A stretch of 31,664 nt of DNA from a virus, in IMG/VR virus record IMGVR_UViG_3300047494_000267, positions 1 through 31,664 of that record. The stretch is one strand, 5' to 3'. The translations under genes and the position numbers were made by a program. The notes beneath the pieces are model-generated. The model was not told where the DNA came from. It saw only the letters and a list, made by a program, of their open reading frames with translations, and searched no databases. Shown here piece by piece: positions 12,586 to 16,029 of the stretch; within the stretch, counting starts at the first letter, position 1; the number at the start of each line of letters is the position of its first letter.

Positions 12586-14160
12586 ATGCCCATCGTGCAG
12601 CAAGGCGCGCTGAACACCACCGCGCTGATCGTGCCGGATCTGTATGTGCAGATCGTGGCGCCGCAGAACCTGGTGCTGAACGGCGTGCCGACCGATCTGG
12701 TCGGCGTGGTCGGCAGCGCGAGCTGGGGGCCGGTCGGCCAGCCCACCATTGTTGGCAGCATGGCCGATTACGCGGCGAATTTCGGCCCGCTGGTCGCGCG
12801 CAAATACGATATGGGCACCCAGGTAGCGACCGCCGTGCAGCAGGGTGCGGCGAATTTCTGCTGCGTGCGCGCAACCGACGGCACCGATACCGCAGCCGAG
12901 CTCGGTGTGTTCTACACCGGCGCCTCCGGGCCGCTGGTGTTGACTGCGCGCTACACCGGATCGCTCGGCAGCCAGATCGTGGTGACGTTCAGCGCCGGTT
13001 CGGCCGCCAATACCTGGAGCATGGCCGTATCGCTGCCCGGCGCGCCGCCCGAGCTGTTCAACAACATCGCCGGCAGCGGGGAGACATTTTATCAGAACCT
13101 GGTCAGCGCCGTGAACACCGGCAACGGCGTGCTGCGCGGGCCCAGCCAGATCATCACCGCCGCGTTGGGCAACACCTTCAGCGTCAATCCCGTCGCCGGC
13201 AGCTATCCGTTCAGCTATGGCGCGGCCGGCACCGATGGTGCCAGCTCCATCACGGCGGCGACCCTGATCGGCGCCGATACGCTGCCGCGCCACGGCATGT
13301 ATGCGCTGCGCGGCCAGGGCTGCAGCGTGGGCCTGCTCGCGGATGCCGATGACAGCACGCAATGGACCAGCCAGGTGGCGTTCGGGTTGAGCGAGGGCGT
13401 GTATATGATCGGCGTGGGGCCGGCCGGCGACACCATCGCCAATGCCGTGACCACCAAGCAGAGCGCCGGGATCGATAGCACCGCGTTCAAGCTGCTGTTC
13501 GGCGATTGGGTGTGGTGGAACGATGCGGTGAACCAGCAGATCCGCCTGGTCAGTCCGCAGGGCTTCGTGGCGGGGCGGCTGGCGAACCTGTCGCCGGAAC
13601 AATCCTCGCTAAACAAGCCGCTGTACAGCATCATCGGCACGCAGAAATCCGGTCAGCCGGGCAGCTCGCAATCGAACGCCTATGCCACCGCCGATCTGCA
13701 AACCCTGTTTTCCGCCGGCATCGACGTCATCAGCAATCCGCAGCCGGGCGGCGCCTATTGGGGCGTGCGCTGCGGGCATAATTCCACCAGCAACGCCGCC
13801 GCCAACGGCGACAACTACACCCGCATGACCAACTACATCGCGGCCACGCTGAACGCCGGCATGGGCCAATATGTGGGCCAGGTGATCAATAGCACATTGT
13901 TCCAGCGTGTGCGTTCCACGCAGTTGCAGTTCCTGGCCAACATGCAGTTGCAGGGGCTGCTGGGCAGCACGGACGGTTCCACACCGTATTCGGTGATCTG
14001 CGACACCAGCAACAATCCGTCCAGCCGCACGGCGCTGGGCTACGTGCAGTCGGACGCGCAGGTGCAGTATCAGGCGATCAACGAGGTGTTCATCGTCAAT
14101 ATCGAGGGCGGGCAGACTGTCACCGTGCAGCGTCAAACCTTGCCTGCTGGCCAATCGTAA
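12586..14160 (+). CDS. Contractile tail sheath protein
   Basis: The 524-residue protein is the outer contractile sheath that drives the tube through the envelope. The N-terminal sheath signature is clear (ALIVPDLYVQIVAPQ, then GVVGSASWGPVGQP), followed by a variable surface domain (about 100-240), and the conserved C-terminal core with AYWGVRCGHNSTSN, DNYTRMTNYIAATL and the final beta strand NEVFIVNIEGGQTVTVQRQT used to lock neighbouring subunits. A GAGAG ribosome binding site precedes ATG 12586. Together with the tube gene just downstream it shows that the phage has a myovirus tail. Confidence 0.93.
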   Translation: MPIVQQGALNTTALIVPDLYVQIVAPQNLVLNGVPTDLVGVVGSASWGPVGQPTIVGSMADYAANFGPLVARKYDMGTQVATAVQQGAANFCCVRATDGTDTAAELGVFYTGASGPLVLTARYTGSLGSQIVVTFSAGSAANTWSMAVSLPGAPPELFNNIAGSGETFYQNLVSAVNTGNGVLRGPSQIITAALGNTFSVNPVAGSYPFSYGAAGTDGASSITAATLIGADTLPRHGMYALRGQGCSVGLLADADDSTQWTSQVAFGLSEGVYMIGVGPAGDTIANAVTTKQSAGIDSTAFKLLFGDWVWWNDAVNQQIRLVSPQGFVAGRLANLSPEQSSLNKPLYSIIGTQKSGQPGSSQSNAYATADLQTLFSAGIDVISNPQPGGAYWGVRCGHNSTSNAAANGDNYTRMTNYIAATLNAGMGQYVGQVINSTLFQRVRSTQLQFLANMQLQGLLGSTDGSTPYSVICDTSNNPSSRTALGYVQSDAQVQYQAINEVFIVNIEGGQTVTVQRQTLPAGQS

Positions 14161-14232: not shown

Positions 14233-14661
14233 ATGGCAGCTACACAGTTTTCGTTGGGGCGCGATTGCCAGCTCGTGGTTATCGGGCCGGCGGGGCGAGT
14301 TGATCTCAGTTACGTCACCGCGTTTCAAAGCAGCCAGGTGACCCAGCCGGTACGCGTGGACCGGCTCGATGGCGTGCAGATGGCAACCGAACTGCCGAAG
14401 GGCTGGGAAGGCAGCTTCGAGGTGGAGCGCGGATCGAGCGCGGTGGACGATTTCATCTCCGCCGCCGAAGTGGCGTACCGCACCAGCGGCGCGCTGCCAT
14501 ACGGCCAGGTGTATCAGTACATCACCGAACCCGACGGCTCCGTCAGCACGTTTCAATACACCGGCGTGGTGTTCCGCCTGATCAACGCCGGCGTGTGGCG
14601 CGGTGATGGCGCGGTGAAACAGAAGCTAGAATTCTTCGCCGCCGCACGGTTGCGCCTGTGA
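14233..14661 (+). CDS. Tail tube protein
   Basis: The 142-residue protein follows the sheath gene, with a TGGAG ribosome binding site. It has the length and beta-rich pattern of contractile tail tube proteins (P2 FII/T4 gp19 type): an N-terminal arm, DLSYVTAFQSSQVTQPVRVD, the ELPKGWEGSFEVERGS segment, and a terminal FQYTGVVFRLINAGVWRGDG strand pair. It polymerises as hexameric rings inside the sheath. The stop codon overlaps the GTG start of the tail assembly chaperone gene (GTGA). Confidence 0.88.
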   Translation: MAATQFSLGRDCQLVVIGPAGRVDLSYVTAFQSSQVTQPVRVDRLDGVQMATELPKGWEGSFEVERGSSAVDDFISAAEVAYRTSGALPYGQVYQYITEPDGSVSTFQYTGVVFRLINAGVWRGDGAVKQKLEFFAAARLRL

Positions 14662-15002
14662 GCGGCGCACCCGCCGCGCAGTTGCTGCGCGAGACCACCG
14701 CGCCGATCGACGCCACCGGCGCGGATGGCCGCCGCTATACCCTGCGGGCCATGAACGTGCTGGACCGGCTGCGGCTGTTCAAGGCGGTGGGTGCGGAGCT
14801 GGCGAACAACGAGGCCTATCTCGGCATCGCCTACCTGGCCTTCGCGGTCAGCGCGATCGATGGCGTGCCGGTGCCCACGCCGGTGAACGAGCAGCAACTC
14901 GAAGTGCTGGTGGGCAAGATCGGCGATTCCGGGATTGCCGCCATCGCCGACGCGTTCGCCGCGCAGGACGCCGCCCGGCCGGAACCCGCCCCGGGAAACT
15001 GA
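14658..15002 (+). CDS. Tail assembly chaperone, protein G (short frame)
   Basis: The 114-residue protein begins at GTG 14658, overlapping the tube stop codon. It is the short product of the tail assembly chaperone gene pair (lambda G/GT, P2 E/E+E'), which holds the tape measure during tail assembly. Its sequence includes RYTLRAMNVLDRLRLFKAV and AYLGIAYLAFAVSAIDG, typical of this helical group. The last codons read CCG GGA AAC TGA, forming the -1 slippery heptamer GGGAAAC directly before the stop, so a fraction of ribosomes can continue into the T extension. It lies between tube and tape-measure position as expected. Confidence 0.82.
   Translation: MSGAPAAQLLRETTAPIDATGADGRRYTLRAMNVLDRLRLFKAVGAELANNEAYLGIAYLAFAVSAIDGVPVPTPVNEQQLEVLVGKIGDSGIAAIADAFAAQDAARPEPAPGN
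14993..14999 (+). promoter_or_regulatory. Programmed -1 ribosomal frameshift site GGGAAAC
   Basis: In the G reading frame the heptamer is phased G GGA AAC and is followed directly by the TGA stop (15000-15002). It fits the X XXY YYZ rule and differs by one base from the lambda G-T site GGGAAAG. Slipping back one base opens a 58-codon frame. Confidence 0.85.
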
Positions 15003-15175
15003 GCCGGCACCCCGATCTGGTCGACGCGCTGTATCTGGTGCGGAACGGGGTGCCCTTCGATGTGGCGTTCAGCCTGCCGGAAGCCGATCGCACCGAATGG
15101 GTGGTCGCACTCGGCACCCTCTCCGGCCGCCGCTTCGATTGGTCGACACGCAATTGGGATGAGGAAGGCGCATGA
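14999..15175 (+). CDS. T extension of the G-T tail assembly chaperone (made by -1 frameshift)
   Basis: This frame has no start codon of its own and is read only after a -1 shift at 14993-14999. It encodes 58 residues with clear protein character: LSRHPDLVDALYLVRNGVPF, then DVAFSLPEADRTEWVVALG and GRRFDWSTRNWDEEGA. The frame is open from the slippery site to the stop at 15173-15175. The full G-T fusion would have 172 residues (114 + 58). In lambda the T part recruits the tail tube protein to the tape measure. The stop overlaps the next gene's ATG (ATGA at 15172). Confidence 0.8.
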   Translation: MSRHPDLVDALYLVRNGVPFDVAFSLPEADRTEWVVALGTLSGRRFDWSTRNWDEEGA

Positions 15176-16029
15176 CCGATTTAGCGCGCCGTAGCGCCGC
15201 CAGTCTGGCTGCGGCGCGCGCGCGCACGTTACTGGCGCCGGCGCTATTCCGGCTGCGGCAGGGCGCGGGGCGGTGGACGGAGGCCGCGCGGTTGTTGCTC
15301 GCCGCACCGCGCCGCACCGGCTTGCTAGGGGCCCCAGGGGCCGCGACGGCGCCCGTGGCGGTGCGACGGCGCGTGCGGGCGCCGCGTGTGCCCAGGCCGG
15401 AGCAGATCGGTGCACCTGCGGGCAGTGCCTGGCGGGCGATCGCGGCGGCCGCGGCATCGCGCTTCCCCGTCGCGCGGACTTTCGTCGCCGGCCGCGTTGG
15501 ACTGCCCGCTGCATCCGCCATCGCAAACATGCCCTTGCCGGCCTCAACCTTGAGGATTAGCGCTGGCGTCTGCGTCGCACCCGGATCAATCGGCGGGCCC
15601 CGCCTGCGGAGTGCCGCGAGTCCGCTGATCCCGCTTTCCGTTGTCCGGCCACCGGTTGCCGAATCGCGGCGCCACGGCAAACCCGGCGTTCGCGCACCAG
15701 CCGGTGCACCACTGATCCGCCGTATGCCTCGTCTGGCCACGCCATCGTCCGGCTTCAGCCGATCCGCACCCACAGCCCCCCTCGCCGCCGCCATGCCCCG
15801 CGCTGCGGTCGCGCCCGTGGAAAACCATGCGCCGCCCCTGCCACCGCCGCTGCGTGTGCAGCCCGCACCGCCGGCGCCGTGGGACAGTGCCGCGCCGCTG
15901 GATGGCGCACAGATCGGCCGCTGGGTCACCGATCAGCTCACCGAGGCCGCCAGCCGGCCGCCCAGCGGGCTATCGGGCCTGGATGACCGGCTGACCCCGG
16001 TGTTCGCCGGCATGGTCGGCTACGGCTGA
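15172..16029 (+). CDS. Short protein in the tape-measure position
   Basis: The 285-residue protein follows the G-T genes, where phages keep the tape measure protein, often 600-1500 residues. It is rich in Ala, Pro and Arg, with a helical basic N-terminus (about 1-50) and a long Pro/Ala/Arg middle. A C-terminal segment looks conserved (IGRWVTDQLTEAASRPPSG, then LDDRLTPVFAGMVGYG). The hydrophobic segments usual for tape measures are absent. It may be a minimal tape measure, in which case the tail would be very short, or a remnant after an internal deletion. I am confident only of the coding frame, through the overlap at its start and the TGGAG site of the following gene. Confidence 0.55.
   Translation: MTDLARRSAASLAAARARTLLAPALFRLRQGAGRWTEAARLLLAAPRRTGLLGAPGAATAPVAVRRRVRAPRVPRPEQIGAPAGSAWRAIAAAAASRFPVARTFVAGRVGLPAASAIANMPLPASTLRISAGVCVAPGSIGGPRLRSAASPLIPLSVVRPPVAESRRHGKPGVRAPAGAPLIRRMPRLATPSSGFSRSAPTAPLAAAMPRAAVAPVENHAPPLPPPLRVQPAPPAPWDSAAPLDGAQIGRWVTDQLTEAASRPPSGLSGLDDRLTPVFAGMVGYG

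Follow-up and report, generated by a model that had tools for sequence, protein, structure and literature searches.

Evidence for a programmed −1 ribosomal frameshift between a probable tail assembly chaperone gene and its extension in a family of contractile-tailed phages from acetic-acid bacteria and related hosts

Between two tail genes of a contractile-tailed phage lies a short reading frame, here called T, which overlaps the end of the preceding gene, G, in the −1 phase and has no ATG of its own, and this raises the question of how T comes to be translated. The DNA analysed (the ‘window’) is a whole virus record of 31.7 kb, in which genes for the portal, major head protein, tail sheath, baseplate hub and baseplate spike are recognisable. 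Synthesising the sequence comparisons described below, we propose that G and T are very probably joined by a programmed −1 ribosomal frameshift, such that a single start codon would give rise to two proteins: G itself and a G-T fusion.

The G/T pair and its neighbours

The genes at the locus are arranged as follows:

12586-14160: tail sheath gene (PHROG_23, tail sheath)
14233..14661, + strand: probable tail tube gene, 142 aa (PHROG_12993, of function unknown there, E 1e-40)
14658..15002, + strand: G, 114 aa, GTG start; the zero-frame product, a probable tail assembly chaperone
14993..15175, + strand: T, the extension in the −1 frame, with 58 residues beyond the slip; ends ATGA over the next ATG
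15172..16029, + strand: next gene, 285 aa, at the tape-measure position (assigned by position only)

The order is therefore sheath, tube, G, T and next gene, which places the G/T pair between the tail tube and tape-measure genes, with both of these identities being given by position. We take the product of 14233-14661 to be the tail tube from its location directly after the sheath gene and from its size; the stop codon of this gene overlaps the start of G (GTGA, 14658-14661). The GTG with which G begins in the window is replaced by ATG in 86 of 99 loci. The 285-aa gene at 15172-16029, whose product is rich in Ala, Pro and Arg, gave no match in Pfam and PHROG searches; its product may be a very short tape measure or another protein altogether. 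In relatives, the ORFs at this position are about 264-393 aa long, and phiKX1 has genes of 171 aa and 742 aa.

G belongs to PHROG_20383, which is listed with unknown function, and searches of Pfam and NCBIfam returned no usable hit for it; nor did sequence profiles of G and T find anything meaningful in the PDB. Its AlphaFold model (pLDDT 86.6) has as its best matches in the PDB the HK97 tail assembly chaperone (2ob9; Z 4.5 over 99 residues), 5ir0 and YqbN (3klu), and the likeness of its predicted fold to the HK97 chaperone, YqbN and PICI ORF19 is modest (Z 4.2-4.5). With 9% identity to the HK97 protein, no close relationship to it or to PHROG_508 is detectable, whereas the predicted fold is similar. 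PHROG_508 (‘tail assembly chaperone’) is nevertheless matched by 24 of 69 G homologues (best E 1.6e-4). Taken together, fold, weak sequence matches and gene order suggest, moderately and not decisively, that G is a probable tail assembly chaperone. T is predicted to form a small helical domain (AlphaFold pLDDT 89.3); a Pfam search gave no hit for it, and searches with its model among PDB structures and viral models gave no informative match.

Conservation of the heptamer, the −1 frame and a downstream hairpin

The elements of the putative frameshift signal are:

14970..14988, + strand: weak Shine-Dalgarno (SD)-like stretch, around CCGGAACC (anti-SD duplex −3.5 kcal/mol)
14993..14999, + strand: candidate slippery heptamer GGGAAAC, in phase G_GGA_AAC (from sequence and conservation)
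15000..15002, + strand: zero-frame stop of G (TGA), directly 3′ of the heptamer (from sequence)
15006..15014, + strand: 5′ arm of the predicted stimulatory hairpin, GGCACCCCG (from pairing and the frozen codons CAC CCC)
15046..15054, + strand: 3′ arm of the predicted stimulatory hairpin, CGGGGTGCC (from pairing and the frozen GGG and GTG)

The 3′ end of G reads CCG GGA AAC TGA, in which the heptamer has the X_XXY_YYZ form expected of a frameshift site and a phase that would suit −1 slippage; GGGAAAC occurs only this once in the window, with both strands scanned. From here the −1 frame is open as far as the TGA at 15173-15175, giving a predicted fusion of 172 residues, and the last codon of T overlaps the ATG of the next gene at 15172 (ATGA). 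A sequence-only reading of the locus had already described a GGGAAAC phased for a −1 shift, adjoining the stop of G and one base away from the lambda site (G_GGA_AAG, as against G_GGA_AAC here), followed by 58 open codons and an ATGA overlap, and in all of this it agrees with the coordinates that we obtain. Its further statement, that the −1 frame lacks a start codon, holds for ATG and fails for GTG, which is found at 15038, 15050, 15062 and 15101; and it overlooked the hairpin.

Comparison of homologues shows how widely the arrangement is kept. The first set, of 199 distinct loci having both G and T, was drawn from bacterial genomes and viral contigs, mostly Acetobacteraceae prophages, fetched by homology to the small upstream gene (the probable tube gene) and enlarged by G and T queries and by two Komagataeibacter phages. 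An in-phase heptamer is present in 197 of these loci (GGGAAAC in 179, AAAAAAC in 18), and 198 have T in the −1 frame relative to G. A wider search took a G profile to 395 genomes of the host order and found matches in 160; among the 110 G-profile loci examined (17 of them already within the first set), 104 carry GGGAAAC or AAAAAAC, four carry GGGAAAT, AAAAAAT or AAAAAAA and two carry none, such that XXXAAAN stands in phase in 108 of the 110. By chance, an in-phase GGGAAAC or AAAAAAC would be expected at about 8e-5 per codon (9 in 111,921, counted over the remaining genes of these loci); of the 368 Gly-Asn dipeptides encoded in those genes, just 9 are spelled G_GGA_AAC. The codon ahead of GGA or AAA differs between loci, yet without exception it ends in G in the first case and in A in the second, and hence the whole slippery unit is kept and switches together; on the best tree at least four switches between GGG and AAA are needed, of which well-supported branches force only one.

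A usable in-phase heptamer is missing in only four loci, and over both sets T falls outside the −1 frame of G in only two. One locus of the first set has lost a base within the heptamer (L180) and another has an early stop in G (L210), breaks in the arrangement that look like sequencing error or decay. The remaining two (L366 and L368) are very divergent G homologues in which the heptamer is absent from the end of G, possibly reflecting a different form of recoding. T lies in the other frame in L366, whilst in L368 a CCCTTTG stands in phase six codons upstream of the stop. The outcome that had been named as telling against a frameshift, a broken heptamer or frame along with loss of the extension, was thus not found among the homologues.

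One point counts against the frameshift reading: ribosomes of E. coli shift far less readily on A_AAA_AAC than on A_AAA_AAG (PMC5009743), with the caveat that efficiency in these hosts may differ. Separate genes for tRNA-Lys(CUU) and tRNA-Lys(UUU) are present in the host genomes of L275-L278 and L280-L282, and it is our guess that separate tRNA-Lys(CUU) genes may favour a heptamer ending in AAAC rather than AAAG.

Beyond the zero-frame stop, the −1 frame is open and under selection at the protein level. Across 98 sequences, the amino acids at codons 9-17 and 21-39 of T are largely unchanged as synonymous sites vary, and codons 3, 6, 13 and 15 specify the same amino acid in all 98. Synonymous freezing, by contrast, peaks at the heptamer and at both arms of the hairpin, where CCC (5′ arm) is the codon in 93 of 97 sequences against 0.19 expected, GGG (3′ arm) in 97 of 98 against 0.28, and GTG (3′ arm) in 98 of 98 against 0.50.

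The predicted hairpin has a stem of 9 bp, its first base lying 6 nt past the heptamer. In 89 close sequences, 98.9% of cells are paired; covariation among 90 close sequences is thin when taken by itself (one double change), becoming strong only once divergent loci are included: in 103 divergent non-redundant sequences, 92.7% of cells are paired, as compared with 39-51% when the partner is slid, and 18 cells are doubly changed, as compared with 3.5 in shuffles. A C-G pair of the stem is replaced by G-C in L094 and L133, a U-A pair is used in L346 and L351, and L391 keeps eight of the nine pairs with largely different letters (GGGATGCC/GGCATCCC). The stem is part of the minimum-energy fold in 97 of 97 sequences, from which set seven were excluded (six stemless, one register-shifted), and a possible inner helix that would lengthen it appears in the AAA group. 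In single-sequence folding, the window gives unremarkable z-scores owing to its high GC content, and the case for the hairpin is one of conservation and covariation. RNA structure a few nucleotides after the heptamer is thus predicted throughout, save in six divergent sequences (L367, L370, L374, L376, L383 and L375) where the heptamer is kept and the hairpin is absent in its usual register. In the first five of these, a divergent group, the heptamer is AAAAAAC/T and the adjoining stop is also kept.

Upstream of the heptamer, the SD-like stretch is weak in the window and stronger in many relatives. Over 129 non-redundant loci, complementarity to the 16S rRNA 3′ end is highest in stretches ending 4-11 nt before the heptamer, where it is strong in 62% of loci, as compared with 33% of codon shuffles, and the element is missing in 38%. 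The commonest spacing between its core and the heptamer is 9 nt, reported SD-like stimulators of −1 shifting being spaced at 9-14 nt (PMC5009743); an SD-like element stands at stimulatory distance in about half of the loci.

How the fusion would be made

On the frameshift reading, most ribosomes would make G and a minority the G-T fusion. A ribosome with GGA in its P site and AAC in its A site would meet the 9-bp hairpin 6 nt past the heptamer whilst, in about half of the family, the SD-like sequence upstream also held it back; the two tRNAs would then re-pair on GGG and AAA, and translation would go on into T, whereas ribosomes that do not slip would terminate immediately at the adjoining stop. 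By analogy with lambda, G may coat the tape measure protein and T may bring in tail tube subunits, the roles of the two proteins here following the lambda G/GT scheme.

What part the stop codon plays is a more delicate matter. It adjoins the heptamer, as TGA, TAA or TAG, in 175 of 197 loci, and stands six codons downstream in the other 22, in which heptamer and hairpin are still kept; on the tree its position has to change about 11 times, and well-supported branches force three or more of these changes. An adjoining stop is therefore usual and not essential. The 6-nt spacer, judged against known spacers, would suit slippage with AAC rather than the stop in the A site, and in HIV-1 release factor can recognise a stop codon placed here before the ribosome slips, in competition with shifting (PMC4373837), so that a stop here would lower and not raise the frequency of the shift. 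On these three counts, the earlier idea that slippage is driven by the pause of a terminating ribosome is not supported as an essential component. Slippage could alternatively be limited by release factor, taking place once the stop codon has reached the A site and the heptamer occupies the E and P sites. The occurrence of all three stop codons, with differing −1 amino acids beside them, makes it seem that the adjoining stop is itself favoured, and the HIV-1 results imply that significant slippage occurs when the A site is occupied by the next codon (PMC4373837); however, the hairpin would then be just 3 nt away, release factor would compete with slippage at that point, and the loci with distant stops have dispensed with such an arrangement whilst keeping the rest of the signal. 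We consider this version of events unlikely. It is likewise conceivable, if doubtful, that the adjoining stop is a working part in another sense, with release factor competing against hairpin-driven slippage and so setting the G:GT ratio.

Other readings dispense with ribosomal slippage altogether. T might be a separate small protein, started at the conserved GTG at 15050 or at some other start, with the hairpin regulating that start; the GTG codon, in GGGGTGCC, is indeed invariant, and the annotators of phiKX1 called a separate ORF in the T frame (from 6360 of L120). Against this, the −1 frame upstream of the GTG already evolves as protein (it holds the invariant codons 3, 6, 13 and 15 and the synonymous changes in 9-17), which argues that the frame is entered at the heptamer and not at a start codon. 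Moreover, across 129 loci no other start codon is conserved in the T frame, an ATG between heptamer and GTG being found in four only; the GGGG beside the GTG sits within the stem, leaving no spacing for a ribosome binding site; and a start codon would leave the invariance of the heptamer unaccounted for. A separate T is, we think, highly improbable. Scarcely any weight can be given to the view that G and T are simply two adjacent genes in different frames, conserved as part of densely packed tail genes: phage genes do often overlap, and the two could be separate, but the only conserved start in the T frame is the GTG inside the stem, and frozen codons cluster at the heptamer and in the stem arms. 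Transcriptional slippage in a run of bases could also yield a fusion, and runs of A6 or A7 do exist in some relatives (AAAAAAC, AAAAAAA); yet most first-set loci have GGGAAAC, with no run longer than three, and such slippage would require no hairpin at a constant 6-nt spacing and no X_XXY_YYZ phase, leaving the chance that it is responsible vanishingly small. The kept heptamer and −1 frame and the covarying hairpin instead lend strong support to the proposal of the sequence-only reading, that gene finding based on start codons misses a G-GT fusion.

Relation to known systems and significance

The E. coli dnaX frameshift differs from the one proposed here in that its heptamer is of the AAG type and its gene cellular, and the nearby stop in dnaX lies in the shifted frame. 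The two are alike in having an X_XXY_YYZ heptamer and an upstream SD-like stimulator (PMC5009743) and a downstream hairpin (PMC7282821).

Amongst phages, the nearest precedent is the lambda G/GT tail assembly chaperone frameshift at G_GGA_AAG (reviewed in PMC5009743), which is shared in gene position (after the tube gene and before the tape-measure position), in the −1 direction and in the pairing of a chaperone-like G with a short T. Here, however, the seventh base is C, the stop mostly follows the heptamer directly, there is a strong conserved hairpin, the tail is contractile, and the proteins are unrelated in sequence (no Pfam or NCBIfam model). The g-t sites of the haloarchaeal viruses HCTV-1 and HCTV-2, G_GGA_AAC and A_AAA_AAC (reviewed in PMC5009743), have both of these heptamers at the corresponding gene pair, but these are siphoviruses of archaeal hosts, and the likeness seen here is one of heptamers and gene pair. 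P2, with its E/E+E′ frameshift at T_TTT_TTG, and its Burkholderia relatives (PMC3091744) offer a myovirus tail chaperone pair expressed via a −1 shift with a short extension; the heptamer there is a different one, and no hairpin was found at those sites (PMC3091744), whereas one is nearly universal here. Downstream structure at phage chaperone frameshift sites has been described as rare (PMC3091744). For the present phage family we found no report of a frameshift in the literature, and none is mentioned in the phiKX1 paper (PMC8566455). The lambda-type G/GT mechanism and both heptamers are thus known, and what is new is the protein family, the architecture of the signal and its conservation.

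The signal is unusually complete, comprising XXXAAAC, an adjoining stop, a covarying hairpin and, in about half of the family, an SD-like element. A large family, found in numerous genomes of the Acetobacteraceae order and in their viruses, is thereby added to the tail-chaperone frameshifts, and a coding frame that stood without annotation beside PHROG_20383 is now explained. Were the adjoining stop indeed a working part, the G:GT ratio would respond to the termination capacity of the host, and the phage tail operon would contain a release-factor sensor. With a hairpin that is maintained, and covaries, even between very divergent members, the family is a good natural set in which to separate the contributions of hairpin, SD-like element and adjoining stop, its natural swaps (GGG to AAA, a stop at 0 or 6 codons, hairpins of differing sequence) serving as ready variants; and the relatives phiKX1 and phiKX2, which are inducible from Komagataeibacter xylinus, are usable for such tests.
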